Part shown: positions 9,575-34,156 of the stretch, one piece after another | Layout: each line of letters begins with the position of its first letter | Numbering within the stretch: position 1 is the stretch's first letter | Origin: a virus | Strand: one strand, 5' to 3' | IMG/VR virus record: IMGVR_UViG_3300046010_007035 | Coordinates: 1-34,458 of that record | DNA length: 34,458 nt | Program-made: the position numbers and the translations under genes | Notes under the pieces: generated by a model | Told to the model about the DNA's origin: nothing | Seen by the model: the letters and a program-made list of their open reading frames with translations, nothing else | Database searches by the model: none

Positions 9575-10000
9575 ATGAAGACTTTTAAAACTCTTATTTC
9601 CGAAATTGTTGACATAGATCAACAATCAACAGAAAACATATCACCCTCTGATGAAAAAATAATACCTGGGGTATCTTTGTCTAGAACTTATAGATCTAAA
9701 GTTGGAGATAATGAAATCTTAACTAAGATTGATCACAGTTTCTTTTCAGACAAATCAGATATTAAATTTTTCGTAAATGGTTCGCTTGAAAGACTTGAAA
9801 AACCAAGATCTACAAGTGAAGCACTACAAGTTTACAATACCGTCTTATCTCACATCAAACATCACGTTGAAAATTCTCCAAGTGAAATTAAAGCAATCAA
9901 GTATTCATACAAAGACGATGAAGGTGGAAAAAAGAAACATAAACTTTACCAATCGTTTGGTAGGAAGTTCAATATTCCATTAGAACCTAGAGTTGCGTAG
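9575..10000 (+). CDS. Small protein with capsid-targeting-like N-terminus
   Basis: 141 residues starting MKTFKTLISEIVDIDQQ. The first ten residues closely match the T4 internal-protein targeting sequence MKTYQEFIAE, and I-S-E provides an (I/L)-x-E prohead-protease site. The mature part is mixed charged (SFFSDKSDIKFFVNGSLERL, SHIKHHVENS) and ends with a basic segment. I infer a protein packaged in the head. The upstream frame extension is rejected because the tag start fits. No ribosome site or clear late promoter precedes it. Confidence 0.65.
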   Translation: MKTFKTLISEIVDIDQQSTENISPSDEKIIPGVSLSRTYRSKVGDNEILTKIDHSFFSDKSDIKFFVNGSLERLEKPRSTSEALQVYNTVLSHIKHHVENSPSEIKAIKYSYKDDEGGKKKHKLYQSFGRKFNIPLEPRVA

Positions 10001-10247
10001 TCTTTGGAACAACAATTTTTGACTTCTTGTTGTTTACATGACCATTTGCGTCTTTGATGAAGTAATTGCTCTTTTGTCGGTCGTCATCATGACCAAGACG
10101 ATAATTGATTTCTTCGATACCAATTGCATTGAGAATCAATGCATCAGTTTCTTCATCAGCAAGAATGCCTAGGATTTGACGAGAAGCAATCAATGCTTCA
10201 TCTTCACTCATGTTGAGTGGAATATCAATATGAAGACGATATGGCAT
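9987..10247 (-). CDS. Small hypothetical protein
   Basis: 86 residues, MPYRLHIDIPLNMSEDEALI, with an alpha/beta N-terminal half (HIDIPLNM then a helix EDEALIASRQILGILA) and a basic C-terminus. Not recognised. It starts two bases after the stop of the 50-residue gene upstream and shares its transcript. Its end overlaps the convergent plus gene by 14 bases. Confidence 0.6.
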   Translation of the reverse strand: MPYRLHIDIPLNMSEDEALIASRQILGILADEETDALILNAIGIEEINYRLGHDDDRQKSNYFIKDANGHVNNKKSKIVVPKTTQL

Positions 10248-10249
10248 GA

Positions 10250-10402
10250 TTAATCCTGTAAAAAGTGAGCAAGATCAGACTCTTCCACTTCCATGATGTT
10301 TCCCGATTCGGTTTTGATCTTGCACATTTTGTTACCGAACAGATCAACATAACGATCTACAATTTGGCATGTTTCTTTTGTTTCTTTTAGAACATATTTC
10401 AT
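10250..10402 (-). CDS. 50-residue hypothetical protein
   Basis: Encodes MKYVLKETKETCQIVDRYVD and ends ESDLAHFLQD. A GGAG ribosome site lies six bases before the ATG. A short beta-rich protein packed between two other minus-strand genes. Function unknown. Confidence 0.6.
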   Translation of the reverse strand: MKYVLKETKETCQIVDRYVDLFGNKMCKIKTESGNIMEVEESDLAHFLQD

Positions 10403-10405
10403 AAT

Positions 10406-10774
10406 TCACTCCATTCTCCGAATTCCTTCGTTGTCTGTATAGTATATATCGTCAAATACTTCAAGACACCAAGGGGTACACAGTTCACACGGTTTCGACA
10501 TTCTTAGTTGTCGAAATCTATTGAATCTTACGTTCACCAAACAAAGTTTCAACCCACGATACTTGTGTGGAAGTTTGCGGTATGCATCCAATTCAGAATG
10601 CATCTCTTCGTATGGGTATCCAATTTCCTTTGCCTTTGGATGTGTCTTGAAACAGTTTCTGCCAATTGAAAGAAGTCTATTCTTATGAAATATCAAAGAA
10701 ATGTGCTTCTTTTGACGAGGAATTTCCATACACAATGGAAACGTAAAATTCAAAAGATTATCAAAGTCTGTCAT
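10406..10774 (-). CDS. Cytidine/deoxycytidylate deaminase-like protein
   Basis: 122 residues. The zinc and catalytic signature of the deaminase superfamily is visible: H59-S-E61 and P95-C96-E-L-C99, followed by TPWC. In dCMP and cytidine deaminases the His and two Cys bind zinc and the Glu shuttles the proton during hydrolytic deamination. The protein is short, and T4 Cd is about 190 residues, so substrate (dCMP, free base, or nucleic acid) is uncertain. The ATG at 10774 is chosen over a TTG nine bases upstream. A terminator hairpin ends only a few bases before it. Confidence 0.7.
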   Translation of the reverse strand: MTDFDNLLNFTFPLCMEIPRQKKHISLIFHKNRLLSIGRNCFKTHPKAKEIGYPYEEMHSELDAYRKLPHKYRGLKLCLVNVRFNRFRQLRMSKPCELCTPWCLEVFDDIYYTDNEGIRRME

Positions 10775-10775
10775 A

Positions 10776-12566: not shown

Positions 12567-12637
12567 AGCGGAATACGGGAATCGAACCCGTTTTACTGGA
12601 TTGGAAATCCAGGGCATCACCAATATGCTAATCCCGC
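12567..12637 (-). tRNA. tRNA-Gly (anticodon UCC)
   Basis: Minus strand acceptor GCGGGAT/ATTCCGC, D-arm with GCATATTGGTGATGC, anticodon stem CTGGA/TCCAG with loop TTTCCAA, T-arm ACGGG-TTCGATT-CCCGT. No encoded CCA. Confidence 0.92.
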
Positions 12638-12653
12638 ACACTCTTATCTATAA

Positions 12654-13636: not shown

Positions 13637-14395
13637 ATGAAAAAATTATCAGATATATATCGTTTAATATTGGAAGAAGAAAAACCACCCGAAGAAATAG
13701 TAGATGATTTACCAGATATTGGTGATTATTTTGAGCCTGAACCTATAGATCCAAGAATTAGACCAGGGCCTCTTCCATATGATCCTATAACAAATCCAAG
13801 AGTACCACCAATACCAGCATGGTTTGGTGGAACAATAACACAATGGATTCGATATCTAACAATTCTTGCACCTTGGTTATTTTTTACACAACAAGCAGGT
13901 GGAGGACTTGGAAATGGTGGATATGGTTGGTATGGAAATGATGATCAAGGATGGATTCCTATGCCTCCACCAACGAATTGGCAAGGACCAGATATTGAAT
14001 GGTATAGAGACATATTAGGAATAAAACCAAGCGAATTCCCAGGACTTGGACTTCAATTTGATAGAGAAGGAAATGAAATAAGAGATGATATTTCAGACGC
14101 TCCTGTTACTCCAACTAGACCAGATCCTCCACCACCACCATCAGATCCTAATATAGTAGATGAAAATGGATATTTGCTTCCAGATTATGCCTATAAGTGG
14201 AATAAACAGAGACAAAGATATGAAATTGTTCCAAGACCACCAAATATTATAAATCTTCCATCGTATTATTATGATGTAAATACAGGAAGATGGGTAGTGT
14301 ATGTACCCGAACCAGTATCTCAAAATCCACCAACAGTGGATCAACCAAAACCAGTACCAGTACAGTTACCAGCAACCCCAACTAGGTATTATTAA
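13637..14395 (+). CDS. Tagged Pro-rich internal-protein candidate with hydrophobic helix
   Basis: 252 residues. N-terminal MKKLSDIYRLILEEEKPPEE is an amphipathic helix ending in an L-E-E-type site (residues 12-15). Next a Pro-rich linker, a hydrophobic helix WIRYLTILAPWLFF (70-83), TQQAGGG, then GNDDQGW.PMPP and EWYRDILGIKPSEFPGLGLQ (121-140), and a Pro-rich tail. The 65-150 module recurs in the 19568-20872 protein. A membrane-active protein delivered with the DNA is an inference. CCTAAATA five bases before the ATG and no ribosome site suggest a leaderless late mRNA. Confidence 0.7.
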   Translation: MKKLSDIYRLILEEEKPPEEIVDDLPDIGDYFEPEPIDPRIRPGPLPYDPITNPRVPPIPAWFGGTITQWIRYLTILAPWLFFTQQAGGGLGNGGYGWYGNDDQGWIPMPPPTNWQGPDIEWYRDILGIKPSEFPGLGLQFDREGNEIRDDISDAPVTPTRPDPPPPPSDPNIVDENGYLLPDYAYKWNKQRQRYEIVPRPPNIINLPSYYYDVNTGRWVVYVPEPVSQNPPTVDQPKPVPVQLPATPTRYY

Positions 14396-14559
14396 ATACC
14401 TAGTCGATGATAAAGAGACTTTGGAAGACGACCCAACTTATGGAGTTCTTCCAAAGTTTTCTTTTTGGCATTTGCCAACATTGCTTGTTGCTTGGCAGTC
14501 CACTTCTTCTTCTTTACACGATGCTTGTGTGCTACTTCACGATCAGTTGTATTTGCCAT
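14392..14559 (-). CDS. 55-residue basic protein
   Basis: MANTTDREVAHKHRVKKKKW, then TAKQQAMLANAKKKTLEELH. A small highly basic helical protein, possibly nucleic-acid binding. It overlaps the plus gene by four bases and contains a terminator hairpin for it. Two bases separate it from the upstream 39-residue gene. Confidence 0.6.
   Translation of the reverse strand: MANTTDREVAHKHRVKKKKWTAKQQAMLANAKKKTLEELHKLGRLPKSLYHRLGI
14418..14466 (+). terminator. Terminator of the plus gene, embedded in the opposing gene
   Basis: ACTTTGGAAGA (14418-14428) pairs with TCTTCCAAAGT (14447-14457), followed by TTTTCTTTTT. It lies inside the 55-residue minus-strand gene. A second inverted repeat ACTAGGTATT/AATACCTAGT (14381-14404) spans the stop codon. 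Confidence 0.7.
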
Positions 14560-16541: not shown

Positions 16542-16549
16542 TATAAATA
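16542..16549 (+). promoter_or_regulatory. T4-type late promoter
   Basis: TATAAATA, the exact T4 late consensus, ten bases before the ATG of the tagged protein at 16560. Confidence 0.75.
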
Positions 16550-16559: not shown

Positions 16560-17438
16560 ATGAAAAAATTTAAAGAATACATTATCGAATCAGCGGGTGG
16601 AGGAAATAAAGGAGAACCTGGTGTTAATGATCTTCCACCTGGATTAGATTATACAAGCGCAGCATATCTTTCTGCAACTCCCATGTCAACTGCAAAGGGT
16701 TATGTTGCTGCATTGGAACCAGTTACATTTACACCATACATGTATAGATCAGTATACAGTCCTTATGTGTCTGGTGGATTGGATCCTGGTCAAGACAGAA
16801 ATAATGGAAGAGTAAGCGGTGGTGGTGGATTTGAAATCGAAAAACAATCTCGGGATTATTTGATTGCTCTTGCAAAAAGATATGGTATAGACATCGAAAC
16901 ACCAGAATCGATGCAGAAAAAGCAGCAACAACAAATGGGTGGTCAGCAACAACAAATGCCTATGGGTGGAATGGGTGGTCAACAACAACAAGGCATGGAC
17001 CATTATCTTTACAATCAAGTCAAGAAACACCCAGCAATGTATTTACTTAATCAAGATCAAGGTCTACAAAAAGAATTCGACAAAGCATTCAAATCGATGT
17101 TGGATTGGAAAACAACAACTAAAAATCCAGACGAAGGAAAAGATTGGTACACTCTTTGGAAAGAAAAGAAGAAGAAAGAAGAAGATCAACACAAAGTCAA
17201 TCTGGGTAGAATGGCAACACAACTGAGATTTAAAGAATTTTCCACAGGTGTACACAATAGATTGAATCATATGGGATTGGCATCTGATGACCTTCCACAT
17301 ATTAAGAATTATCTTGATCCATCAAATCATCCTATGACACATGATCAAGAACAAAATCAACAATCAATGAATCAAGATCAGAATTATGGATATCCTGATG
17401 ATTCATATACAAATTTAGATTACGGAACTATGGAATAA
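16560..17438 (+). CDS. Tagged internal-protein candidate with Gln/Met/Gly-rich centre
   Basis: 292 residues. MKKFKEYIIESAGGGNKGEP matches the T4 capsid-targeting sequence, with I-I-E at 8-10 followed by Ser. Next a Pro/Tyr region, a helical patch SRDYLIALAKRYGIDIETPE, a glutamine/methionine/glycine run (about 120-145, QQQQM and GGMGG repeats), then a basic helical domain (DWYTLWKEKKKKEEDQHK, HNRLNHMGLASDDLPHIKNY) and an Asn/Gln/Asp tail. It has its own late promoter and terminator. Packaging in the head is inferred from the tag. Confidence 0.7.
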   Translation: MKKFKEYIIESAGGGNKGEPGVNDLPPGLDYTSAAYLSATPMSTAKGYVAALEPVTFTPYMYRSVYSPYVSGGLDPGQDRNNGRVSGGGGFEIEKQSRDYLIALAKRYGIDIETPESMQKKQQQQMGGQQQQMPMGGMGGQQQQGMDHYLYNQVKKHPAMYLLNQDQGLQKEFDKAFKSMLDWKTTTKNPDEGKDWYTLWKEKKKKEEDQHKVNLGRMATQLRFKEFSTGVHNRLNHMGLASDDLPHIKNYLDPSNHPMTHDQEQNQQSMNQDQNYGYPDDSYTNLDYGTME

Positions 17439-17467: not shown

Positions 17468-18076
17468 TTACCAAACAGGCATTCCGTGTCTCCATCTCCA
17501 CCAAAATGGTATCTGTGGGTTATCACGACTATTTGGATCATCACCATCAGCTGGTGGTTGCAATCTGAGTTGACCAGTTCTCGGATCCCAGAAAAACTGC
17601 CCAGGTCTTACTGGCCATGTCATCCACCCATCATTATGTCGAACAAATCCCCAACCAACAAGTCCTGGTCGTTTTTCTAAAAGTCTCCATTGATTATTTT
17701 CGTGGTCCCACCACCAAATTCTAGTTCCATCTGGGAAATTCTCAAATGGTGGAGGATCCCATGCTGGTTCATCGAGTGGTTCTGTTGGTGTTGTTTCTGG
17801 TTCTCGTTCTGGATCTGGTTCTAGTTCGATTGGTGTATTTGGTGGAAACTGAGAATCGGGGAGTGATGGAATTGGTTGATTTGATATTGGACCACTAGGA
17901 GGTGGTAGATCCTGACCAGTTGGTCTTGGACCCTGTGGGGGTTCTGGTGGATCCCATGGACTTCTTAAATCCCATAAAGATGGAGGTCTATATGGTGGAG
18001 ATGCTTCATTAATAACTCTTTTATTAATGTTCTGTTCTAATTTTTTATACAGTTGTTCTTTTAAATATTTTCTCAT
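17468..18076 (-). CDS. Tagged Pro/Trp-rich internal-protein candidate
   Basis: 202 residues. N-terminal MRKYLKEQLYKKLEQNINKR is a basic amphipathic helix, and I-N-E at 22-24 followed by Ala is a cleavage-type site. The mature part is extremely proline-rich (PPEPPQGPRP, LEPDPEREPETTPTEP) and then tryptophan-rich: a WW-like unit TRIWWWDHENNQWRLLEKRP, later WMTWPVRPGQFFWDPRTGQL and FWWRWRHGMPVW at the end. No known domain. The FFWDPRTGQL unit has a relative in the next gene (WWWDPVAKKW). Eight bases from the upstream gene. Confidence 0.65.
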   Translation of the reverse strand: MRKYLKEQLYKKLEQNINKRVINEASPPYRPPSLWDLRSPWDPPEPPQGPRPTGQDLPPPSGPISNQPIPSLPDSQFPPNTPIELEPDPEREPETTPTEPLDEPAWDPPPFENFPDGTRIWWWDHENNQWRLLEKRPGLVGWGFVRHNDGWMTWPVRPGQFFWDPRTGQLRLQPPADGDDPNSRDNPQIPFWWRWRHGMPVW

Positions 18077-18084: not shown

Positions 18085-18732
18085 CTATGCCATAGGCATG
18101 GTATCTCTTGTTCTTGAAAGATTAGGCCAGTTACCCATGGGATATCCTCTCCAATCGCCTTGTGTCCATTTCTTTGCTACTGGATCCCACCACCAACCAA
18201 AATTCCATGGGTGGTACATTTCTGGATTAAGTTCCAAAGGTCCAGTTGGTGCTCCTGCTTGTCTTTCGAATGGACTAAACAGAACCCATCCGACTGAGGG
18301 GAACCAACGCCATATAGATCTAAGACCATTTAAAATTCTGGTGACAATAGATTCGTCTTGTTGTGCGTCGATATACTCCCAAGAATAAATTGGCATACCG
18401 TTAGCATCTCTGCGTTCTACTAGTATCAGAATTCTACCTGGTCTTTCTTCTGGTCTAGGTGGAATCGTTGTTTCTCTACCGTGCATTGTTATGTCACCAG
18501 GTTCTACCTGTCTTGGATCCATCACATCATCGATTGTGATTTCATCTGGTAGATCTGGTGGTATAATTCGATCTATTTCACCTGTTTCCCAGTTCCATTC
18601 AAATCCAGGTGGAATGTTTCCTGGATTTGGTGGGGGTGGAGTATATGATCCGTAAGTTGCAGTTGGACTATAACTCGCCTCAGAAATTGAGTTATAATAG
18701 TTTTCTAGTAGTAGTTTATTGAATGAGCTCAT
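18085..18732 (-). CDS. Tagged Pro/Trp-rich internal-protein candidate
   Basis: 215 residues. MSSFNKLLLENYYNSISEAS has the helix and I-S-E (16-18) before Ala. Then a Pro/Gly stretch (YTPPPPNPGNIPPGFEWNWE), a compact middle (RILILVERRDANGMPIYSWE, LNGLRSIWRWFPSVGWVLFS) and a WWWDPVAKKWTQGDWRGY unit. The AFDKLLVENYRKSLNEA segment of the 19568 protein is a clear relative of its N-terminus. An AATAAATA box ends five bases before the ATG, with no ribosome site. Confidence 0.65.
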   Translation of the reverse strand: MSSFNKLLLENYYNSISEASYSPTATYGSYTPPPPNPGNIPPGFEWNWETGEIDRIIPPDLPDEITIDDVMDPRQVEPGDITMHGRETTIPPRPEERPGRILILVERRDANGMPIYSWEYIDAQQDESIVTRILNGLRSIWRWFPSVGWVLFSPFERQAGAPTGPLELNPEMYHPWNFGWWWDPVAKKWTQGDWRGYPMGNWPNLSRTRDTMPMA

Positions 18733-18740: not shown

Positions 18741-19550
18741 TTATTGTCGTATTAATGGAAGAATATCTCTGTAGTAAAAGTCACCAGCTGGTGTGTTGTA
18801 GTAGGCAGGACGATCAAATCCAGTTGGTGGTTCTCCAGTAAAAGGATTCCAACCAGGATATAGGTAATCAAGAGGAGTATTCCATCCATACCCAGGATAA
18901 ACATTACCATTCTGATCCATTCTAAATTGCTGACTGGGAATCTGTTGTAATCCTTCTCTATTGAAGTTTGGTGGTAAATTTGGATATACTGTAAAGTTAT
19001 GTGGGGGCCCTACTACTACTGTAATGGTTCCATCTTCATTTGTTATTACTCTTATCTGACGACCTTCCGAATCAGTATAGTCTGGTGGGAATTCAAATAC
19101 TTTAGGATTGATTGGTAAATCTTCATAAGGAATTGGTAAATCCTCTGCATCTTCTTCGGTTGATTCTGTGTCATTTATATCAAGGTTTTCATAATCATCC
19201 TCAGTTGGTTCACTCGCAGATGGTGTATTTCTTAAATAAGGATTAGTAATTATTTGCAAAACGCCATTATCGTCATAAAACTGAATTGGAGAAGCATTCC
19301 AATTATCAAATGGTGGTATTAATACCCCTGGAGTTCCATAAGGTGGAACATCATATGATGATCTATAGGTTGGTGTTTGTTGCTGATATGGTTGATTGTA
19401 TGATGATTGATAATTTTGTCTTTGATTACGAACATCAAATTTTTCAGCACCAATAGTTTCTTTTGGTGTTGTAGTGTCGATGCTTCCTGTTACCATTTCA
19501 TTCAATTTGGTACGAAGACGATTTTTAATATGTTCTTTTATATTTATCAT
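18741..19550 (-). CDS. Tagged Pro/Tyr/Asn-rich internal-protein candidate
   Basis: 269 residues. MINIKEHIKNRLRTKLNEMV gives a basic amphipathic helix and L-N-E at 16-18. Then a Tyr/Gln/Ser run (RQNYQSSYNQPYQQQTPTYR), an acidic linker (about 115-145), a small ordered domain (RQIRVITNEDGTITVVVGPP), and a Pro/Asn/Tyr tail with YLYPGWNPFTGEPPTGFDRP. A TATAAATA late box ends five bases before the ATG and no ribosome site is present. Confidence 0.65.
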   Translation of the reverse strand: MINIKEHIKNRLRTKLNEMVTGSIDTTTPKETIGAEKFDVRNQRQNYQSSYNQPYQQQTPTYRSSYDVPPYGTPGVLIPPFDNWNASPIQFYDDNGVLQIITNPYLRNTPSASEPTEDDYENLDINDTESTEEDAEDLPIPYEDLPINPKVFEFPPDYTDSEGRQIRVITNEDGTITVVVGPPHNFTVYPNLPPNFNREGLQQIPSQQFRMDQNGNVYPGYGWNTPLDYLYPGWNPFTGEPPTGFDRPAYYNTPAGDFYYRDILPLIRQ

Positions 19551-19567: not shown

Positions 19568-20872
19568 TTATTGATCAACGTATGGATAGGTATCATTTGT
19601 GTATAGAGGATATCTTGGTCTTCTTGTTGGGAGTTGAATTGGTTGGTTTGCAACTGGACCATCTACAGCAGGAACTAGTTCATTTCCGTCCTGATCGAAT
19701 TGCAATCCAAGACCTGGGAATTCACTTGGTTTGATTCCGAGAACATCTCTGTACCATTCCATATCGCTTCCTCTCCACCAAGTTCCATCGGGTGGCATTG
19801 GATACCAACCCTGATCGTCATTTCCTACGAAACCAGGTCTGGGTGATCCACCACCTGCTTGTTGAGTAAATATCCATGGAGCAACAGCACCAAGAAGTTG
19901 TAACCATCCAGCAAGACCACCAGTCCACCAAGATGGTGGATTTTGTATAATGGGTCTTGGTGTTCTTGGTGGATTGATTGGATTTCTATATCTATCGTAT
20001 GTGTCATTTGGACCATAGACTGTTGGTCTTCTAAGGTCGGGATCAGGATCATTGTATGGACCAACATCGACTATATTGTGACCAATTGGTTTTGGACGAA
20101 GACGATCAATTGGAGTAGATGTAGGATTATATCGATTGGGATGATAACGAGGATCAAGTGGATTCTGCCATATGTCACCGAAACCGTCTTGTGGTCGAGC
20201 TTCGTTTAATGATTTTCTATAATTTTCTACGAGTAGTTTATCAAATGCTCCTGGCATATATGAGTCTCCAAGTCCTTTTCTTCTCCAGAAATTCCATTCT
20301 GCTTTTGTCATGTCACCCTGACCCATTCTTGGTTCCTTACCAATTTGAGAAGACATCTTTTGTTCGATCTCTCTCCGCGAAATTTTTTTAACGGGTCTTG
20401 TCTCTGCTTTTGTTTTAATACCAGCAAATTTTTCTATGTCACTCAGGGAAGTCAAATAAGAACCACCACCAGTTACATCTTTGGTATATTTGGTCAATTC
20501 GTCATCGGCATCAAGGTCATCCGAGAGAACAGTTATTTGAAACTTGCTATTTGGATTTTTGCTGTAGTGATTAAGTAATGTTCTAAGAGCGCGTGTGAAA
20601 TTCCAGGGTTTGGTCTTTTGTGCTTCGTGTGTCAGAGTATGATGATGTACATTCCCCTCATCACCCGATTCGAGATCATATTCACCTCGAATGAATCCCT
20701 TTCCCATTGCTCTTTGATATAATTCTCTGTCACTAAATGATTCGGCATGATTTCTATCTTTATATCCAAACAAATTTGGATTGTCCACGATATAATCTAG
20801 ATGCAAGTCCGTCTTATGGATTGGATGAAATTCACCCTGTGGTCCAAAAAAATGACGACTTGTGAAATTCAT
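19568..20872 (-). CDS. Two-part protein: globular domain, internal tag, Pro/Trp module
   Basis: 434 residues from the ATG at 20872, two bases after the upstream stop. Residues 1-200 form a globular domain (FGYKDRNHAESFSDRELYQR, WNFTRALRTLLNHYSK, FQITVLSDDLDADDELTKYT). Residues 206-224 (MPGAFDKLLVENYRKSLNE) are a second capsid-targeting-like segment with L-N-E before Ala. Residues 225-434 are Pro/Trp-rich and repeat the module of the 13637 gene (APWIFTQQAGGG, GNDDQGWYPMPP, EWYRDVLGIKPSEFPGLGLQ). Cleavage at 224 would release two products. It looks like a fusion of two genes or a polyprotein. Confidence 0.65.
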   Translation of the reverse strand: MNFTSRHFFGPQGEFHPIHKTDLHLDYIVDNPNLFGYKDRNHAESFSDRELYQRAMGKGFIRGEYDLESGDEGNVHHHTLTHEAQKTKPWNFTRALRTLLNHYSKNPNSKFQITVLSDDLDADDELTKYTKDVTGGGSYLTSLSDIEKFAGIKTKAETRPVKKISRREIEQKMSSQIGKEPRMGQGDMTKAEWNFWRRKGLGDSYMPGAFDKLLVENYRKSLNEARPQDGFGDIWQNPLDPRYHPNRYNPTSTPIDRLRPKPIGHNIVDVGPYNDPDPDLRRPTVYGPNDTYDRYRNPINPPRTPRPIIQNPPSWWTGGLAGWLQLLGAVAPWIFTQQAGGGSPRPGFVGNDDQGWYPMPPDGTWWRGSDMEWYRDVLGIKPSEFPGLGLQFDQDGNELVPAVDGPVANQPIQLPTRRPRYPLYTNDTYPYVDQ

Positions 20873-20874
20873 TG

Positions 20875-21870
20875 TTATGCCCACCAACCTGGTGTTACTT
20901 GATACTCTGGATCAATTGATTCTGGATATTGAAGAGGAGAGAATGGTTGTGGTTTTGGTCCTTGCCTCCAACGTTGATATCTTCCCCACAATTCCTTCAC
21001 TGCTCCCCTAAAGGCAGGAGTCATCCAAAAAGGAGTATGCCATGGATTCATTCCCGATGGCACATTTTGCCATGGGTTCCATCCAAGAATGGGATCCCAG
21101 TTTTGTGGTGGGCCGTAATAGAATTCAAGTATTTTCCATAATTCTTTGGTGACCCACGGTATATGATTTGGAGGAATATTATCTCTCATCCACTCAGGAA
21201 TCGCATACCATATATCGACAATACTCGGGGGTATATATGGTTGTGTTTGATCATATGAATCATTTGGAGACTGCATAGGATCACTCCATTGACCAGAATT
21301 CGGATCAAATGCTGTAGGCCATTGATCGGGTGGATCTACTTTTGGTTCAATTGCAGACTCTTTTAATTCGGTATCCATCTGCGACATCAAAAATTTTTCA
21401 TACTCGGGTAATGACAATACCATATGATTAGGATGACCAGAAACTTCGATTCTATATCCAGGATGTTTTTCATGAACTGCTCTTGCAGTATGCAACCGAT
21501 TATAGACATCATTTTCTACATCTTTTTTACGCATAAGAGTATAGTCTGGACGACCATATTGTTCTTTACCTTCTGGTTGACCCTTTGCTTGACTAATAAT
21601 ATAGAACATCTTATTCTTATGATCGATTCTTCCGAAAGATAAAGGTCGTGGTTTATGTTTATTTTCTTCAGTAGTATCATTATCGTTCATTGCGTAGTTG
21701 AACTGTGGTAATACATCATCATGTTCTATGAAGACATCAAATCCTTTATCTTCTTCTGGTGTGTGCACAATGTGTAATTTCTTATTTGAATTAACAACAA
21801 AGAGTGAATTATCCTTGAAGTCAAATTTATTCTTTGCCGATTCGATGATGAATTGTTTAAAGGGTTTCAT
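20875..21870 (-). CDS. Two-part tagged protein with Pro/Trp-rich C-terminal module
   Basis: 331 residues. MKPFKQFIIESAKNKFDFKD matches the T4 targeting sequence, with I-I-E at 8-10 before Ser. A globular domain follows (SLFVVNSNKKLHIVHTPEED, FYIISQAKGQPEGKEQYGR, VENDVYNRLHTARAVHEKHP), then T-E-L-K-E (167-171) before Ser, a second cleavage-type site. The C-terminal part is Pro/Trp-rich (IPEWMRDNIPPNHIPWVTKE, WDPILGWNPWQNVPSGMNPW). TATAAATA lies 18 bases before the ATG. It heads the minus-strand cluster of tagged genes. Confidence 0.68.
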   Translation of the reverse strand: MKPFKQFIIESAKNKFDFKDNSLFVVNSNKKLHIVHTPEEDKGFDVFIEHDDVLPQFNYAMNDNDTTEENKHKPRPLSFGRIDHKNKMFYIISQAKGQPEGKEQYGRPDYTLMRKKDVENDVYNRLHTARAVHEKHPGYRIEVSGHPNHMVLSLPEYEKFLMSQMDTELKESAIEPKVDPPDQWPTAFDPNSGQWSDPMQSPNDSYDQTQPYIPPSIVDIWYAIPEWMRDNIPPNHIPWVTKELWKILEFYYGPPQNWDPILGWNPWQNVPSGMNPWHTPFWMTPAFRGAVKELWGRYQRWRQGPKPQPFSPLQYPESIDPEYQVTPGWWA

Positions 21871-24838: not shown

Positions 24839-24848
24839 CATGCTATTG

Positions 24849-24880: not shown

Positions 24881-24921
24881 TTGATGTACTCTTCTCTTCT
24901 CTCTTCTTTCCTCTTTATTTG

Positions 24922-25902: not shown

Positions 25903-25909
25903 GTGGTAT

Positions 25910-27226: not shown

Positions 27227-27228
27227 GT

Positions 27229-27794: not shown

Positions 27795-28116
27795 TGTGAT
27801 CCTCCGCACGAATCCACTCCGCCTTGCGCGCAGCATTCACGCGCTTCTTGTCATCCTCCCATTGCAGCATTCCACGCAGCTGAGCAAGCTCAATGGACTG
27901 CGAGATAACCGCACGCTCGAGCTCACGCTTGCGCTCCTTGAGCGTATCCATCTCCTCGTATGCAGCGCGAATGTCCTCGCGCAGATTCTCGACATGAATG
28001 CGATAACTCTCGCACTCCTCGGACATCGAATCCAACGCAGACTCCAGTGTAGCACGATCAGGCGCAGTATACGTCACAGTTTCAGTCTTGTTCTTCTTGT
28101 TCTTACGCTTGCTCAT
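27784..28116 (-). CDS. Coiled-coil protein, first gene of the kinase operon
   Basis: 110 residues. A basic start MSKRKNKKNKTETVTYTAPD and a long coiled coil (CESYRIHVENLREDIRAAYE, EMDTLKERKRELERAVISQS). AGGAG precedes the ATG and a strong promoter lies upstream. It heads a tightly overlapping unit that runs to 24922. Confidence 0.62.
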   Translation of the reverse strand: MSKRKNKKNKTETVTYTAPDRATLESALDSMSEECESYRIHVENLREDIRAAYEEMDTLKERKRELERAVISQSIELAQLRGMLQWEDDKKRVNAARKAEWIRAEDHNDF

Positions 28117-28143
28117 TACGCGATCTCCTTGTGTGAGTTGTGT

Positions 28144-28172
28144 ATTGTACCACAAATGGTATTTCTTGTCAA
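28144..28172 (-). promoter_or_regulatory. Promoter of the kinase operon (repeat-type A)
   Basis: Minus strand TTGACA (28172-28167), 17-base spacer, TACAAT (28149-28144). The -35 box overlaps the stop of the upstream gene. Spacer nearly identical to two other promoters (29568-29596, 30506-30534). Confidence 0.8.
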
Positions 28173-28627
28173 GCCGTTTGCCCGTACTGGTCATCTTCCG
28201 CATCACGACGAATCGTATTGCACGCCATGCATTCGGTGCGATGGTGTCTAGAAGATGCATCGCAGTCGCCACGGTTGCCGCAGTTCTCGCACACATGGTA
28301 CGAGTAGAGTTCCGCCATGCGAATCACACCGTCAACGATGCCAAGTCCACGCGCAGTCGAGGGAAGATCGTAGGGATTGTCCACGGTAGCACTCTCCGCG
28401 AACGAATCGTAGTAGAAACGCAGTCCGCCGAACTTCTCCTTGATCTGCGCGACGACGATGTTGTACTTCACCTGCTCGTAGTTCTCGCGGGAAGTGATTT
28501 CGGAGTTGATCGCACGACACGCAAGGTCGATGAGATCGTACCAACCATCTCCGCACTCAATCGAAGTCTGATCCTTGAGCAGATTCGGCCAACGCTTCCT
28601 GAGCTTGGTTTCAAGATCCTGGTTCAC
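28169..28627 (-). CDS. Conserved phage protein with zinc-ribbon C-terminus
   Basis: 152 residues, MNQDLETKLRKRWPNLLKDQ, with a central QIKEKFGGLRFYYDSFAES, a motif I recall as common in phage and bacterial small proteins, and a four-cysteine C-terminal ribbon CENCGNRGDCDASS...CMAC. Probably binds zinc. Function unknown. Confidence 0.65.
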   Translation of the reverse strand: MNQDLETKLRKRWPNLLKDQTSIECGDGWYDLIDLACRAINSEITSRENYEQVKYNIVVAQIKEKFGGLRFYYDSFAESATVDNPYDLPSTARGLGIVDGVIRMAELYSYHVCENCGNRGDCDASSRHHRTECMACNTIRRDAEDDQYGQTA

Positions 28628-28818
28628 TCGTCAGTCTCCTTCACATCGAACTCATGGAGTCCGATTTCGGTAATCGGAATCAGGTCGTTCGCAGAGATGC
28701 GGTCGTCGCAGAGATCACGAAACTGATCGTCGCTGATGACCATGATGCTGCAACCCGAAATGGTATTCCAAGTTTCTCCGTCCGAAAGCACGATGATTGT
28801 GTGTGTCTTGCTGCTCAT
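28624..28818 (-). CDS. Small hypothetical protein
   Basis: 64 residues, MSSKTHTIIVLSDGETWNTI, then SGCSIMVISDDQFRDLCDDR. A short alpha/beta protein of the sort common in phage early regions. Start and stop overlap neighbours by four bases each. Confidence 0.6.
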   Translation of the reverse strand: MSSKTHTIIVLSDGETWNTISGCSIMVISDDQFRDLCDDRISANDLIPITEIGLHEFDVKETDE

Positions 28819-29057
28819 TCGTCACTCTCCTTGAGATTGCGGGAAACGATATCCCCGAAGTCTGCCCAGTCGCCATCGCTGGGCTTGTTCTTGTTGAAGT
28901 CCGCGCAAATGCGTTCCCACTCCGCATCGGTAACAGACTCTTCTCGGAGCGCGGGAAGGAATCCCTCCGCATCACCGCGACTAAAGACGAGAATGCAGAG
29001 ATCCTCATTCTCGGGGAAAGCCTGAATAAAGCGAATCATGTGTTCCTTGTGTGTCAT
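28815..29057 (-). CDS. Small acidic hypothetical protein
   Basis: 80 residues, MTHKEHMIRFIQAFPENEDL, then FSRGDAEGFLPALREESVTD. Start shares one base with the previous stop. Unknown. Confidence 0.6.
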   Translation of the reverse strand: MTHKEHMIRFIQAFPENEDLCILVFSRGDAEGFLPALREESVTDAEWERICADFNKNKPSDGDWADFGDIVSRNLKESDE

Positions 29058-29323
29058 TACTGCTCAACCTCCACGCGAATCTTGAAGTTGCCTTCCTCTG
29101 ACTTCTCAACGAAGATTTCGGTGATCGTACCGAATCCGTAATCGCTACCCACGCTGATGAACGGTCCACCTTCGGGATCGAAATACCCGATCTTGGTGTT
29201 GTCGTCGTCCATTCCAACGCGGTAGTAGTGCGTCTTGCCCTCAATCGTGTAGATGCCGTGACCATTTGCAGTCACGGTACGCTTGTCGCCGTAGCGAGAA
29301 TGAAGTGTGAGATTCTTTGTCAT
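29057..29323 (-). CDS. Small beta-rich hypothetical protein
   Basis: 88 residues, MTKNLTLHSRYGDKRTVTAN, with repeated beta hairpins (THYYRVGMDDDNTKIGYFDP, FISVGSDYGFGTITEIFVEK). It lies in the same unit as its neighbours. Unknown. Confidence 0.6.
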   Translation of the reverse strand: MTKNLTLHSRYGDKRTVTANGHGIYTIEGKTHYYRVGMDDDNTKIGYFDPEGGPFISVGSDYGFGTITEIFVEKSEEGNFKIRVEVEQ

Positions 29324-29326
29324 GGT

Positions 29327-29539
29327 TTACCTTGCCCTTGCGTATTCGCGGTTGAGACGGCGCGCATCCTCGGGACTACGCGCAATGAACAGTTCACAGT
29401 CAGCCTTGTGAGAGTAGATGATTCGCGCAACAGACTTGAAAGTGTGCTTGTCCGCGCAATCGACGCAGTATTCCGTATCGGGAATAAACTCGAGGCGCGC
29501 AGCGGGAATCTCATTGCCACAGTCGAAACACTTACACAT
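29327..29539 (-). CDS. Small C4 zinc-finger protein, DksA/TraR-like
   Basis: 70 residues from the ATG at 29539 with AGGAGG upstream. MCKCFDCGNEIPAARLEFIP continues to DTEYCVDCADKH: CxxC, 17 residues, CxxC, the spacing of the DksA/TraR zinc finger. DksA-family proteins bind RNA polymerase, and phage TraR relatives redirect host transcription. Here the coiled coil of DksA is missing, so the finger may serve another role. Confidence 0.65.
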   Translation of the reverse strand: MCKCFDCGNEIPAARLEFIPDTEYCVDCADKHTFKSVARIIYSHKADCELFIARSPEDARRLNREYARAR

Positions 29540-29567
29540 CGGACGCAATCCTCCTTTGGGTGCGTGT

Positions 29568-29596
29568 ATTATACCACAAATGGGTATTTCTGTCAA
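29568..29596 (-). promoter_or_regulatory. Early promoter, repeat-type B
   Basis: Minus strand TTGACA (29596-29591), 17-base spacer, TATAAT (29573-29568). Spacer and boxes identical to those at 30506-30534. Confidence 0.85.
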
Positions 29597-29616
29597 GTGA
29601 ATAAAGAACCACCGCG

Positions 29617-30033
29617 TTAGCGGTGATTCTTCTTGAAGTATTCGTTGTTCGCATCCGCGTCCATCATCTCTTCCGATGAGAAGAGATACTCCCATCCGCG
29701 CTTGATCGCAGCTTCGCGCTGGTGGTATTCGTAGTCCGCGTTTGGAACTTCGGGATCGAACACGGAGAGAAAGCAAACCTCTTTCCGTGCTTCGTCCCGA
29801 TCATCACGGTACAGTTTCGCGTTTGCGTTTGCTTCGTCGCGTTCCTTCATCATCTTCTCAGCCCTATCGTACTGAACGCCGTACTGCGACTCAAGGCGGT
29901 AGATCGTGCTTTCGTTCGCAATGATCTCACCGTAAGCGCGCGCAAGCAGCCGGATGATGTCATCGGGAAGATCGGTGCGCTTGGTAGCAGCGCGGAGTTC
30001 GTAGTCAAGATGATTGATGTTGTTGTTGGTCAT
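29617..30033 (-). CDS. Hypothetical coiled-coil protein
   Basis: 138 residues, MTNNNINHLDYELRAATKRT, then a charged helix (YDRAEKMMKERDEANANAKL) and an acidic tail. The downstream promoter lies between it and the zinc-finger gene. Unknown. Confidence 0.62.
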   Translation of the reverse strand: MTNNNINHLDYELRAATKRTDLPDDIIRLLARAYGEIIANESTIYRLESQYGVQYDRAEKMMKERDEANANAKLYRDDRDEARKEVCFLSVFDPEVPNADYEYHQREAAIKRGWEYLFSSEEMMDADANNEYFKKNHR

Positions 30034-30230
30034 GCGTACCTCGTCTGTGCGAATGATTGCTTGATGGTTCGTCGTTCAATGAATGCTTCGCCGTCTGCGC
30101 GAGCATTTCGTTCCTTCGTGATCTTCTTTCCGATTCCGAATGGTTTGCAGATCGTGCGATTGTGCTTCACTACTGCTGCACCTTCGCGTTCTGCTTCCAA
30201 ATCGAAACGATCAAGGATTCGTTTGGGCAT
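30030..30230 (-). CDS. Small basic hypothetical protein
   Basis: 66 residues from the ATG at 30230, preceded by AAGGAG. MPKRILDRFDLEAEREGAAV and a basic C-terminus (GIGKKITKERNARADG). Start lies inside the upstream gene (20-base overlap). Possibly nucleic-acid binding. Confidence 0.58.
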   Translation of the reverse strand: MPKRILDRFDLEAEREGAAVVKHNRTICKPFGIGKKITKERNARADGEAFIERRTIKQSFAQTRYA

Positions 30231-30498
30231 TGTCGCGCTCCTTGAGAAGTTCCTGATTGCGAAGCGCGACAACCTCACACACATGGCAACCGCCTTCGTA
30301 TCCATTCTTGTAGCGGTCAATCTGCGCGTAGGCATCGTCGCGCTCCTTGACAAGTTTATCAACCGCCTCGTCGAGAACGACAATCGCAACCGCTGCCTGA
30401 TTCAAGTAATCAATCTGCTCGGGAGCGAACGAATCCGCGTTCGCATCTGCGAAGTCACGGAGAAAGTTCATCAGTTTCAGTATGTGTGGATTCGTCAT
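30211..30498 (-). CDS. Hypothetical helical protein
   Basis: 95 residues, MTNPHILKLMNFLRDFADAN, then DYLNQAAVAIVVLDEAVDKL and a coiled-coil with GGCHVCEVVAL. Its -10 box ends seven bases before the ATG with no ribosome site, so the mRNA is probably leaderless. Confidence 0.6.
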   Translation of the reverse strand: MTNPHILKLMNFLRDFADANADSFAPEQIDYLNQAAVAIVVLDEAVDKLVKERDDAYAQIDRYKNGYEGGCHVCEVVALRNQELLKERDNAQTNP

Positions 30499-30505
30499 GG
30501 TGTGT

Positions 30506-30534
30506 ATTATACCACAAATGGGTATTTCTGTCAA
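30506..30534 (-). promoter_or_regulatory. Early promoter, repeat-type B
   Basis: Minus strand TTGACA (30534-30529), 17-base spacer, TATAAT (30511-30506), sequence-identical to the 29568-29596 promoter. Confidence 0.85.
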
Positions 30535-30538
30535 GTGA

Positions 30539-31255
30539 TTAGTGCTTGTGGTATGTCACGGTTGCGACATTGCGATCCCAACACGCACGGCAATCGCGGC
30601 ATTCGTTGTCCTGAGTAGGAGCAACACACGCAACACCACCACGAGCTCGAGAGCGATTCATTGCCGAATCATCGGTTGCGACTTCCGAAGTAATCTCGAA
30701 ATCAGACGGAGCAGCAGAGTCGAGCATGGCAGCGGAAACGCGCACGGTGAGATTCGCGGGAAACTCACCGAACATTTCGCGGTACTTGCGAACGATTGCG
30801 TATTCGCGAGTGGGCAACCAGTGCTGCACATTCGGAGTCATCGTACACACTTGCACGATGTTGATGAGATGCGAGAGCGACTGCAAATCACCCGAATCGT
30901 GCCAACGGAAGTACGCAACCTTCTTGCACTTCTTTCCGATCACGAATGCCATTGCTGCCACCCAGCGCGAATCGAACAGCGCATTGTAACGGCGCTCCAT
31001 TGCATCGACCACATTCGGGAAGTTGTACATTCCCTTGCAAGCGTAACACTTCTCGCAAGTAGAACCCTTCACCTTGCGGAGAGCGGAACCGACATGGCAA
31101 CGCTTCGCGGAAATGCTCGTACTCCAGCCTGGCATCTTCGACGGCTTCGAAAGACCACCGACGATATCCTCGGCTTCGGAATGAACGAAACTAGTTTCGG
31201 GAGAGTGAATCGGAATCGTGCGCGCGGGAGCTTGTGCAAGAGCGAAGGTAGCCAT
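30539..31255 (-). CDS. GP88-family phage protein
   Basis: 238 residues from the ATG at 31255. KMPGWSTSISAKRCHVGSAL, GSTCEKCYACKGMYNFPNVV, AMERRYNAL, FRWHDSGDLQSLSHLINIVQ and HWLPTREYAIVRKY match the phage gene-product-88 family known from mycobacteriophages and others. C-x2-C-x2-C and a C-terminal DNECRDCRACW cluster could bind metal or an iron-sulfur centre. No established function. TATCTT ends seven bases before the ATG. Confidence 0.78.
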   Translation of the reverse strand: MATFALAQAPARTIPIHSPETSFVHSEAEDIVGGLSKPSKMPGWSTSISAKRCHVGSALRKVKGSTCEKCYACKGMYNFPNVVDAMERRYNALFDSRWVAAMAFVIGKKCKKVAYFRWHDSGDLQSLSHLINIVQVCTMTPNVQHWLPTREYAIVRKYREMFGEFPANLTVRVSAAMLDSAAPSDFEITSEVATDDSAMNRSRARGGVACVAPTQDNECRDCRACWDRNVATVTYHKH

Positions 31256-31262
31256 AGCGTAT

Positions 31263-31290
31263 AAGATATCACAAATCTGAAACATTGCAA
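31263..31290 (-). promoter_or_regulatory. Promoter of the GP88-like gene
   Basis: Minus strand TTGCAA (31290-31285), 16-base spacer, TATCTT (31268-31263). Confidence 0.65.
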
Positions 31291-31359
31291 GCCTTCGGGA
31301 AAGATATTTGTACAAATACTTTGTTATCGGTCCTTTCGTTATCGGACCCTGGGCGTCGC

Positions 31360-31460
31360 GTTGATAGTATTTATCGGACCATGGAAAGTTGCATGGTCTG
31401 ATAATATCACAGGACGGTTGATAGTAACGATTTGTTGATAGTACCCCGATGTTGATAGTA
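31360..31460. repeat. GTTGATAGTA array with inverted repeat at the right edge of the block
   Basis: GTTGATAGTA at 31360-31369, 31417-31426, 31434-31443 and 31451-31460 (17-base period for the last three). Between them TTATCGGACCATG (31371-31383) and CATGGTCTGATAA (31392-31404) form a 13-bp inverted repeat with one G-T. The region 31256-31513 contains no gene. Confidence 0.8.
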
Positions 31461-31513: not shown

Positions 31514-32080
31514 ATGGAAAGTTTAAACGAATCAATCAAAAGAATACTTTTGAATGAAACCGACAGTCTCTGGCTGTCAAAAGCGGGGACAGCAGATTAT
31601 AACCCAAGAGGTCAACAAAGCACATCTATGGGGTATAATCCACAACAACAATCATACGGTAGACTACAACCAAGAAGACCAATGTATAAACCACCAGCAA
31701 TGGGTGATAGATACAATCAGCAACAGTATCGTGGTATGAATGTTGCTGGAGATACAAGAAACGCATCATACGGTGGACGAGTAAGAAGATCACCCTATTC
31801 ATACGACAGTTTCATTCGTAGCAACGATCAGAACAACAATCTTAGATCGACTACTAGAAGAAGAGATGATTCTGATTACAGTTCGAATCTTAGTGGAAAC
31901 AACAGAAGACAAGATTTTGATTACAGTTCAAATCTAACTGGTGTTCCATTTGGAAGAAACTTCAGAAGTGGAACCAATAACAACAGTCAGTATGGAGACA
32001 ACCTTGCTCGACAACTAAATAATTGGAGTCAGGGTGGATATAATCCCGAAGCACACGCAAGATTTTTAAATCAACAATGA
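31514..32080 (+). CDS. Tagged basic internal-protein candidate
   Basis: 188 residues. MESLNESIKRILLNETDSLW has the amphipathic helix and L-N-E at 13-15 before Thr. The mature part is disordered, rich in Asn, Gln, Arg, Tyr and Ser, and basic, with a repeated DYSSNL motif (SDYSSNLSGN, FDYSSNLTGV). T4 internal proteins are likewise small and basic. AGGAG precedes the ATG. First gene after the GC-rich block. Confidence 0.68.
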   Translation: MESLNESIKRILLNETDSLWLSKAGTADYNPRGQQSTSMGYNPQQQSYGRLQPRRPMYKPPAMGDRYNQQQYRGMNVAGDTRNASYGGRVRRSPYSYDSFIRSNDQNNNLRSTTRRRDDSDYSSNLSGNNRRQDFDYSSNLTGVPFGRNFRSGTNNNSQYGDNLARQLNNWSQGGYNPEAHARFLNQQ

Positions 32081-32091
32081 AAGGAAATAAT

Positions 32092-32835
32092 ATGAACAGA
32101 AATTTAAAAGAAGCGTATAAAAGAGTATTAAAAAGTAAGATAATTAATGAAAATTCACAGTTATTGAATGAAGGCACTGGCGGTTTGATTGGTAGACTTT
32201 TACGCCAAGCATATGGTAGAAGGTATCCAAGCTTGGATCGTTATTTCCCAGGCAGACCACAAAGTGATTGGATGGCGAATACAGAGGAAGGCGGCCGCCT
32301 TCTTCGAATTTGGAGGAATACTGCAAGAAGCCTAAATACTATGATCCCTAGGAATATGTCAAGATCGCTTTATGATAGTTTACGCGAACAATTTCCGAAA
32401 TTTTATAGGGTTTTGCCAGAACACGAAATAATTGATACTTTAGTTACGCCTGGTAATTCAAATATAATAATTATAAAAACTAGAGATGGTGGTTATATTT
32501 ATCAATATATTGATGGGAATGGAATGCGAATATTAGACGGCACAAAAATACCTCGACCTGAACCAGATGGTAGTTATATTTTCCCAGATGGTTTCTTTCA
32601 AAACAATGACAATTTCATAAGAGACTTAGATGGTCAATTTCCACCCACGGACATGGAAAAATATAAACAATTGTTCGGAACAATTGGAATTGTTCTGGGC
32701 GGTGCATTTGCATATGATGCAACAGCAGATGATGAATCGGATGATATAATTGCTGAACCACCACCAGCACCTGTAGAACAAACACCAGAATTTTTAACAA
32801 GGCCTGGAAGAGAATGGCATCCGCCAATGAAATGA
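32092..32835 (+). CDS. Tagged internal-protein candidate, relative of the tandem-module protein
   Basis: 247 residues. The upstream ATG at 32077 is rejected because AAAGGA lies between it and the ATG at 32092. MNRNLKEAYKRVLKSKIINE and then LLNEG (L-N-E at 25-27 before Gly) give two site candidates. The body (IIIIKTRDGGYIYQYIDGNG) and C-terminus (IIAEPP... TRPGREWHPPMK) parallel the modules of the 32888 protein (AEPPQ... VRPEENWSPPMR). Likely a diverged paralog. Confidence 0.65.
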   Translation: MNRNLKEAYKRVLKSKIINENSQLLNEGTGGLIGRLLRQAYGRRYPSLDRYFPGRPQSDWMANTEEGGRLLRIWRNTARSLNTMIPRNMSRSLYDSLREQFPKFYRVLPEHEIIDTLVTPGNSNIIIIKTRDGGYIYQYIDGNGMRILDGTKIPRPEPDGSYIFPDGFFQNNDNFIRDLDGQFPPTDMEKYKQLFGTIGIVLGGAFAYDATADDESDDIIAEPPPAPVEQTPEFLTRPGREWHPPMK

Positions 32836-32860
32836 GTTGAAAAATACACATTTATAAAAA

Positions 32861-32886
32861 AACAAACCCCCGTAAGGGGGTTTGTT
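32861..32886. terminator. Bidirectional terminator
   Basis: AACAAACCCCC-GTAA-GGGGGTTTGTT (32861-32886), 11-bp stem, with an A-run upstream that becomes a T-run on the minus strand. It separates convergent paralogous genes. Confidence 0.88.
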
Positions 32887-32887
32887 G

Positions 32888-34156
32888 TTATCTCATAGGA
32901 GGTGACCAATTTTCTTCTGGTCTTACTAAAAGTGGAGGTATTGACTGAGGTGGTTCAGCAACGAATTCATCTTCTGGATTCGCGCCTGGATCTAAAAGAC
33001 CTGGCAGTCCTAAAATTGGAGCAACACCAAATTCAATATTGTCGATCGGACTTCTGTATCCTGGATCTGCCCAGTTTTCATGGCCATATACATCAGGAAT
33101 TGAATCTGTATTTGGATTCCAACCTTCTGGGAGTCTCATAAATCCATCTTCTGGGTGCATGTAATAATATCTACCATTTTCTGCAAGAATAACCCAAGCA
33201 CCTTCATCATTAACAATTATTTCGCGAGCACTAGAACCATCTAAACGAGGATGATTTCTATATTGACTTAACCATTTTCTATAGAATTTATCTGCATCAG
33301 AACTAACCGAATATCCTGGCTTGGCATTAAGTCTTATGACAATTCTTTGACTCGCGCCTGGCGGATTTGCATATCTTTCCATGAATTCGCGAAAAGTCCA
33401 CCTGTGTCCTTGTTGGGGATAAAGCATCCTCATCAGCACTCTCCACCATCTAGGTTCTACTGATTCATTTAGTTGATATGATTCATATTTCATAGATCTC
33501 ATAGGAGGTGACCAATTTTCTTCTGGTCTTACTAAAAGTGGAGGTATTGACTGAGGTGGTTCAGCAACGAATTCATCTTCTGGATTCGCGCCTGGATCTA
33601 AAAGACCTGGCAGTCCTAAAATTGGAATTATTCCAAAGAATGGATCATTGTCAATGGGACTTCTGTATCCTTCATCTGCCCAATTCTGATGACCAAATGA
33701 TTCGGGTATAGAATCTCTATATGGATCCCAGTCTTGAGGCAATCTCATGGGGCCCACGGCGCTGTCTGGATGCAGGTAGTAATATCTACCATCCTCACCT
33801 AAAACAATAAATGCACCTTCATCATTAATGAGTAACTGTCTTACTCTGGTTCCACCCATTCCTGTACTTCCATCAAGTTGCTCCAACCAACGACGAATAT
33901 TATCATTATTTCCCCAAGGGTGACTACCACTTCTGTTTATTCTGATAATTCTTCTTGGCCATCCGCCTGGTGGGTTAGCATATCGTTCCATGAACTCTGG
34001 GAATTTTTGTCTTCTAGTAAATCGAGGACCAAACATTCTTTTAATTGCTCTCCACCATAATGGTTCTGCCATCTCATTTAACTCGCGCTTTGGAGTTTTA
34101 TTTTGACCGTTGTTTAAAAAATTTAAATTTTCCTTTGCAATACGACTGTAGTCCAT
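32888..34156 (-). CDS. Tandem-module tagged protein, probable polyprotein
   Basis: 422 residues. N-terminal MDYSRIAKENLNFLNNGQNK and L-N-E at 26-28, then module A (29-220) and module B (232-422). Each module starts ...EP(L/R)WWR, has FMERYANPPG, NDEGA, GRYYY(L/M)HP, PI(L)GLPGLLDPGANPEDEF and ends PEENWSPPMR. Module B is preceded by Y-Q-L-N-E (227-231) before Ser, a second cleavage-type site. If the prohead protease cuts both, two paralogous mature proteins result. AAGGAG precedes the ATG. Confidence 0.7.
   Translation of the reverse strand: MDYSRIAKENLNFLNNGQNKTPKRELNEMAEPLWWRAIKRMFGPRFTRRQKFPEFMERYANPPGGWPRRIIRINRSGSHPWGNNDNIRRWLEQLDGSTGMGGTRVRQLLINDEGAFIVLGEDGRYYYLHPDSAVGPMRLPQDWDPYRDSIPESFGHQNWADEGYRSPIDNDPFFGIIPILGLPGLLDPGANPEDEFVAEPPQSIPPLLVRPEENWSPPMRSMKYESYQLNESVEPRWWRVLMRMLYPQQGHRWTFREFMERYANPPGASQRIVIRLNAKPGYSVSSDADKFYRKWLSQYRNHPRLDGSSAREIIVNDEGAWVILAENGRYYYMHPEDGFMRLPEGWNPNTDSIPDVYGHENWADPGYRSPIDNIEFGVAPILGLPGLLDPGANPEDEFVAEPPQSIPPLLVRPEENWSPPMR
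32890..33020. repeat. 131-bp direct repeat, copy 1
   Basis: Identical over 131 bases to 33496-33626, at an in-frame offset of 606 bases (202 codons). It encodes the C-terminal ends of module B. Confidence 0.95.
33496..33626. repeat. 131-bp direct repeat, copy 2
   Basis: Exact copy of 32890-33020; encodes the end of module A. The rest of the modules has diverged clearly. Confidence 0.95.

Follow-up and report, generated by a model that had tools for sequence, protein, structure and literature searches.

A predicted payload island of T4 internal-protein type in an uncultured cyanophage-like virus

The internal proteins (IPs) of bacteriophage T4 are the closest described counterparts of the genes considered here. 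IPI, IPII and IPIII begin with a 10-residue N-terminal tag, with an aromatic residue at position 4, hydrophobic residues at 7-8 and Glu at 10; behind this conserved tag, unrelated bodies are exchanged in a variable set, in a lineage with a gp21-type protease. Experimental mapping of the T4 tag assigned residues 4 and 7 to targeting and residues 8 and 10 to processing (PMC9026906), and all three T4 IPs inhibit GmrSD restriction enzymes (PMC12373910). Here we analysed the whole of IMG/VR virus record IMGVR_UViG_3300046010_007035, a 34,458-bp fragment of an uncultured T4-like virus (the window), in which a group of genes resembles the IPs in its tags, in the unrelated and exchangeable bodies behind them and in a lineage with a gp21-type protease. 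We consider it probable (roughly 85%) that the group forms a payload island of the T4 internal-protein kind, whose products would be loaded by a tag, cut by a protease and delivered at infection. T4 has three such genes, whereas the window has about eleven across 9 kb; it also has an extra class of longer leaders ending in LNE or INE, internal tags at module boundaries, and Pro/Trp-rich, mostly acidic bodies, and it lies in a cyanophage-like branch, not among the T-even phages. We take the finding as real: on this reading the T4 internal-protein system is greatly expanded and varied here, and long leaders, perhaps also polyprotein payloads, have been added to it.

Other systems are similar in part. 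T4 Alt is a packaged ADP-ribosyltransferase (ART) delivered with the DNA, and an ART-PolyVal protein at locus L221 of a public virus contig bears the same short tag, although none of the window proteins has a recognised ART domain. Polyvalent proteins are predicted virion-packaged effectors of mobile elements, and their ART-PolyVal domain is found behind the tag (PMC5512222); the window proteins differ in being small, with no confident Pfam or PHROG domains, and do not combine several effector domains. Virion enzymes of the cyanophages S-CREM2, S-SCSM1 and S-SM1 carry a short tag of the same class, of which the available parts of the reports on these phages make no mention, and their cargo consists of recognisable enzymes, unlike that of the window. 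The giant phages phiKZ and SPN3US have a distant head protease and different propeptides. Their likeness to the window is one of description: in the accessible parts of the accounts, a large mass of processed head proteins enters the cell (PMC10052503, PMC5694885).

The window was assigned to the T4 superfamily by PHROG profiles (head closure protein gp4, tail tube, baseplate hub gp26, gp32 and gp33), and its closest gp26 relatives are cyanophages, at ~38% identity. The eleven tag-bearing genes total 9.0 kb, less than the 11 kb or so given in a first-pass annotation of the sequence, and are split between 9.6-21.9 kb and 31.5-34.2 kb, with a GC-rich block of other genes between. They are as follows, the scores being those of the motif described below.

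Gene A, 9575..10000, plus strand: tag MKTFKTLISE (9575-9604), mature part of 131 residues, motif score 17.5.
Gene C, 13637..14395, plus strand: tag MKKLSDIYRLILEE; Pro-rich module common to C and H.
Gene D, 16560..17438, plus strand: tag MKKFKEYIIE (16560-16589), motif score 20.6.
Gene E, 17468..18076, minus strand: long tag MRKYLKEQLYKKLEQNINKRVINE (18005-18076); mature part with 23% Pro and 8% Trp.
Gene F, 18085..18732, minus strand: tag MSSFNKLLLE and second site NYYNSISE (18679-18732), motif score 6.0.
Gene G, 18741..19550, minus strand: long tag MINIKEHIKNRLRTKLNE (19497-19550), of the LNE leader class.
Gene H, 19568..20887, minus strand: untagged N-terminal domain, internal tag MPGAFDKLLVENYRKSLNE (20201-20257), then the Pro-rich module.
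Gene I, 20875..21870, minus strand: tag MKPFKQFIIE (21841-21870), motif score 22.4; Pro/Trp module added after TELKESAIE.
Gene J, 31514..32080, plus strand: long tag MESLNESIKRILLNE; basic mature part (pI 10.1).
Gene K, 32092..32835 (open reading frame (ORF) from 32077), plus strand: long tag MNRNLKEAYKRVLKSKIINE; second site SQLLNE.
Gene L, 32888..34156, minus strand: tag MDYSRIAKENLNFLNNGQNKTPKRELNE; two tandem module copies with LNE before each (34073-34156; 33464-33493).

The earlier count of at least eleven N-terminally tagged genes stands in its number, about eleven being tagged, but the tag of gene H is only internal and that of F is weak. The gene at 11276 on the plus strand was excluded as a further member, its start (MILEPFSEHLK) being unlike a tag.

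The short tags were evaluated with a 10-residue motif. It was built from 54 tags of unrelated public viral contigs, found by means of a degenerate DNA pattern that follows the T4 tag, with each cargo family represented by one tag or by a few. Among the 354 ATG-initiated ORFs of the window, those of genes I, D and A ranked first (22.4, 20.6 and 17.5), and only F (6.0) also scored above 4. For comparison, the T4 tag MKTYQEFIAE, which is outside the training set, scores 16.6; none of 45,564 internal 10-mers of the S-CREM2 proteome exceeds 12, and 0.2 hits on average are expected in shuffled window sequence. The short-tag residues agree with the T4 experimental map at positions 4, 7, 8 and 10 (PMC9026906). 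The three tags picked out at first pass are true ORF starts, and the claim of a T4-type targeting tag holds for A, D and I and is borderline for F; the motif does not recognise the long leaders, in which L-x-E is enriched and conserved. Judged by these residues, A, D and I carry an unmistakable T4-type capsid-targeting sequence and F a weaker one; across the island, three to four tags can be taken as individually certain and the others as supported as a class. Chance alone was rejected as an explanation for the short tags, and not fully rejected for single long tags.

Orthologues tell the same story. Those of gene A keep the tag at 27-62% overall identity, with M1, K2, F4 and E10 invariant, and those of gene D bear MKSFKQYLKE and MISFKKFILE; in both families residues 1, 4 and 10 are kept while the remainder drops to 27-62% identity. 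The N-terminal domain of gene I stands alone in relative G003 and at locus L069 behind a tag of the same type, MKSFNQF(I/L)xE, and when the profiles of families A and I are compared, nothing aligns beyond the tag and a few residues behind it.

Outside the window, at least 151 tagged genes were found in public virus contigs, and without the tag they fall into at least 81 unrelated clusters. Since the search pattern itself preset several tag positions, it guaranteed that the tag would look conserved in this set, and the telling result is how diverse the bodies are. The recognisable bodies include NUDIX, HD phosphohydrolase, the ART-PolyVal protein of L221, a lytic transglycosylase-type barrel and a DnaJ-containing protein, together with a methyltransferase and an RNA-ligase-like protein that are both below the Pfam cut-off. 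The tagged genes also cluster in relatives: G003 has thirteen, twelve of them in its first 17 kb. Two tagged HD-domain proteins of RelA/SpoT-hydrolase type (L147, 279-842, HD_4 by Pfam; L181, 1226-1783) may, from their sequence, be a packaged alarmone hydrolase. The gp21-type protease that the first-pass annotation led one to expect is present in the lineage as an S77 protease in G003, G004, G005, G006 and G008 (E 2e-33 to 2e-40); it was not found in four other relatives, which are fragments. The gp23 proteins of these relatives have L-x-E sites in the part of the protein where they are expected, with predicted cleavage in GMLTE/APAN (G005) and NLFE/NSMG (G006).

Virion proteomes of cultured cyanophages provide an independent view. 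In the Synechococcus phage S-CREM2, for which 52 virion proteins are listed (PMC10665884, Table 3), five of 219 genes score above 4: gp14 (kinase-like, tag MKRFDAFLTE), gp6 (S-adenosylmethionine (SAM) lyase, tag MKDFDSFLEE, Pfam E 2e-19, an anti-restriction enzyme), gp154 (cytidylyltransferase), gp175 and gp136. Four of these five are in that list, as are gp13 (MKDLHSFLTE) and gp12 (tag-like LRFASFMAE at residue ~25). The annotation of gp12 (L243, 7704-10313) as Cas9/Csn1 may be doubtful, as the protein has no Pfam domain. S-SCSM1 has two high-scoring ORFs, of which the NMNAT is reported in virions (PMC9602691, in the part available). For these two whole genomes taken together, five of seven tagged proteins are virion-detected in the lists consulted, where the base rate is 19% (p=0.004). 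In the 25 kb of S-SM1 examined, the sole scoring ORF is the cytidylyltransferase T4-GC190, which is listed among virion proteins in the accessible part of PMC3037559. These proteomes report presence, not N-termini, and carry-over is possible for each single protein.

Exchange of bodies behind the tag is seen in strain G001, which is 99.3% identical to the window across 12.6 kb. At gene C, the match (96%) takes in the promoter and the tag, ends at base 13,689 and starts again at 14,398, past the stop codon (97.5%), which delimits one segment.

Swapped segment, 13690..14397, plus strand: in G001 another body takes the place of that of gene C, between flanks (promoter and tag on one side, downstream DNA on the other) with 96-98% identity.

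What G001 encodes there is another Pro/Trp-rich protein, with an in-frame stop soon past the tag that reflects a broken gene or a sequence error. The IP genes of T-even phages show the same swap pattern, with only the tag retained (PMC3012670). From the sequences, at least 81 families and this body swap point to a conserved tag with unrelated, exchangeable bodies. An HNH-endonuclease-like ORF (L112, 2188-2550) lies in G001 where similarity to the window breaks near 12,637-12,650.

Could the tag serve prohead-core assembly only, as part of scaffold, core or length-determining proteins that do nothing in the cell infected next? We give little credence to this alternative. T4 IPIII does affect assembly (PMC9026906), and some tagged families adjoin portal or capsid genes, but many tagged cargoes are non-assembly enzymes (NUDIX, HD phosphohydrolase, ART, RNA-ligase-like, SAM lyase), and rapid turnover and cassette exchange suit an accessory payload better. 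The families beside portal or capsid genes include a widespread one of ~106 residues, MKSFKQFISESVNISGDFNGN, at L203, L215 and L230 and as S-SCSM1 gp30 at 44215, which is perhaps a core protein that gets degraded.

Several results weigh against a payload island. The virion evidence comes from cultured relatives, whereas the window proteins are known from genes alone; two tagged proteins of the relatives, the 55-residue gp175 of S-CREM2 and gp30 of S-SCSM1, are absent from the virion lists in the parts of those reports available, and the S-CREM2 authors write, in the accessible text, that non-structural virion proteins may be carry-over (PMC10665884). No gp21 protease was found in the 34-kb window, an absence that is uninformative because this is a fragment without head genes. 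Pfam and PHROG scans gave no confident domain in the window proteins scanned. The short-tag motif fails to pick up the long or internal tags of seven of the eleven genes (C, E, G, H, J, K and L), (I/L)-x-E occurs in the first 30 residues of 30% of arbitrary segments and is a weak criterion alone, and a helical-moment threshold of 0.40, set beforehand, did not separate the long leaders. This cut-off is far too strict, most tags failing it, MKTFKTLISE among them; it was replaced by charge, absence of proline and motif counts, a loosening made after the failure had been seen.

The lack of Pfam and PHROG assignments would also suit the view that the resemblance is coincidental and that the island holds unrelated membrane-associated or uncharacterised proteins, as would the ability of N-terminal basic amphipathic helices to bind membranes. 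We regard this as very improbable in view of the motif specificity, the shuffled controls, the tag positions kept in orthologues and the detection of tagged relatives in virions. Membrane action of the cargo was rejected since hydrophobicity is too low: there are only weak hydrophobic segments, no convincing transmembrane helix was found in the window proteins (best Kyte-Doolittle 19-mer 1.36), and the hydrophobic helix once described in the mature parts is not borne out. Nor are these parts generally basic, as had been claimed; most are acidic (pI 4.1-6.5), and only those of the genes at 31514 (pI 10.1) and 9575 (8.7) on the plus strand are basic. They do reach 23% Pro and 8.4% Trp (the figures for a cyanophage proteome are 3.9% and 1.2%), in agreement with their first description as Pro/Trp-rich.

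The failure of the motif on the long leaders and the frequency of (I/L)-x-E in random segments favour a narrower explanation, in which only the short-tag proteins (A, D, I and perhaps F) are packaged, the long leaders (C, E, G, H, J, K and L) are nothing but ordinary helices at the N-terminus, and the Pro/Trp-rich long-leader proteins are structural, scaffold or host-expressed chance neighbours. We hold this to be unlikely. Six genes (C, E, G, J, K and L) have long tags ending in L/I-x-E, a class of 13-28 residues, and (I/L)-x-E is present in the first 30 residues of 10 of the 11 island genes as against 16 of 45 other window genes (Fisher p=0.001); in the corresponding islands of G002 and G006 it stands near the start of 22 of 23 genes. 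In G006 [LI]NE lies near the N-terminus in 6 of 17 island genes and only 2 of 99 others (p=1e-4). The leader L and E are invariant, amid diverging neighbouring sequence, in the four sequences of the C/H module alignment, and L-x-E is likewise invariant where the module begins in K, in each half of L and in two separate G006 genes. The leader of J is conserved between viruses, its G006 orthologue retaining MESL..I...LNE, and the G002 orthologue of E likewise has a leader ending in LNE. The module-boundary position, finally, recurs within H and L. Tags ending in (I/L)-x-E, as first proposed, are enriched in the island and kept in orthologues and paralogues, although the triplet alone (~30% by chance) is weak.

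The modules themselves are shared between genes, as had been noticed at first pass. The Pro-rich module of C and H is 53% identical, the tandem copies in L are 59% identical, and K is a paralogue of both L repeats (24-59% identity among the three), with the L-x-E column invariant. In gene H the internal tag lies at residue ~211 and has its own ATG at 20257, preceded by a Shine-Dalgarno sequence (GGAG). Gene L, by its repeat structure, is a possible polyprotein. The structural model of gene A has a globular alpha/beta fold (predicted local distance difference test score, pLDDT, 79); it has no match in the PDB below E 0.001, its viral matches are weak, and it weakly resembles pieces of large multidomain phage proteins. 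The model of the N-terminal domain of gene I is poor (64), and no homologues of gene I were found in the phage collection; distant searches with families A, D and I gave 1-4 loci each.

D, G, I and L each have an exact T4-type late promoter in the 60 nt before the gene, and F, A and C have near matches; none was found upstream of E, H and K.

Late promoter TATAAATA, 16542..16549, plus strand: 10 nt ahead of gene D, without a Shine-Dalgarno sequence.
Late promoter of gene G, 19556-19563, minus strand: exact match.
Late promoter of gene I, 21889-21896, minus strand: exact match.
Late promoter of gene L, 34189-34196, minus strand: exact match.
Late-promoter near match of gene F, AATAAATA, minus strand: 5 nt upstream.

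As far as promoter sequence can tell, the tagged genes are expressed late. At D, F, G, A and C the promoter ends 5-10 nt from the ATG and a Shine-Dalgarno sequence is absent, which suggests late and nearly leaderless messages. Gp4, at 381, likewise has (N)(A/T)TAAATA 5-10 nt ahead of its ATG without a Shine-Dalgarno sequence.

The block between the two halves of the island (22000-31400) holds small genes with a GC content of 47-57%, compared with 33-43% elsewhere. An assembly chimera at 22-31 kb was rejected: homologues of several block genes adjoin tagged islands in four relatives (G004, G005, G006 and G007), so the block looks like a conserved neighbour. Beside gene D, at 16144-16476 on the minus strand, a gene encodes an extremely acidic (poly D/E) protein, and similar acidic ORFs occupy the same place in G002 (L105, 5171), G006 (L106, 17476) and G003 (L094, 10086).

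In the payload interpretation, each protein would bear a capsid-targeting sequence, either short (10 residues, with F4, F7, I8 and E10) or of 13-28 residues ending in L/I-x-E, which would bind it to the scaffolding core during late prohead assembly. A gp21-type protease would then cut after (I/L)-x-E and remove the tag, and the same enzyme would probably separate the fused modules in H, I and L. The mature proteins would stay beside the DNA inside the head until infection brings them into another host cell. Their bodies would be swapped as cassettes, with promoter and tag conserved in front. We infer this packaging, cutting and injection for the window proteins, and with it a part played during the first minutes after entry, in host take-over or counter-defence. 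Because the T4 IPs inhibit GmrSD enzymes and S-CREM2 has a tagged SAM lyase, counter-defence in these first minutes would, by analogy, be the likeliest role for at least some bodies, and anti-defence cargo in general is plausible on the same grounds.

A text search of 5.39 million papers, mostly without subscription papers, found the tag strings in no text; a single T4 review was the one place where "capsid targeting" and "cyanophage" occurred together. The chances seem about even that we are dealing with a payload-loading code of the wider T4 superfamily, in which two interchangeable tag types, short and long, load the head with a large and rapidly changing set of proteins, and some polyproteins are split into several payload modules by the prohead protease. 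If so, virion cargo would be predictable from sequence alone across uncultured phages; and if the tag is a reliable address, the virion-delivered effectors of uncultured T4-like phages could be listed without homology. It would also explain the recurrent SAM lyase, kinase and NMNAT-like enzymes in cyanophage virions, which the authors of those reports, in the parts available, were unsure whether to regard as contaminants. A stock of first-minute effectors, including candidate anti-restriction proteins, would then become testable in the laboratory.

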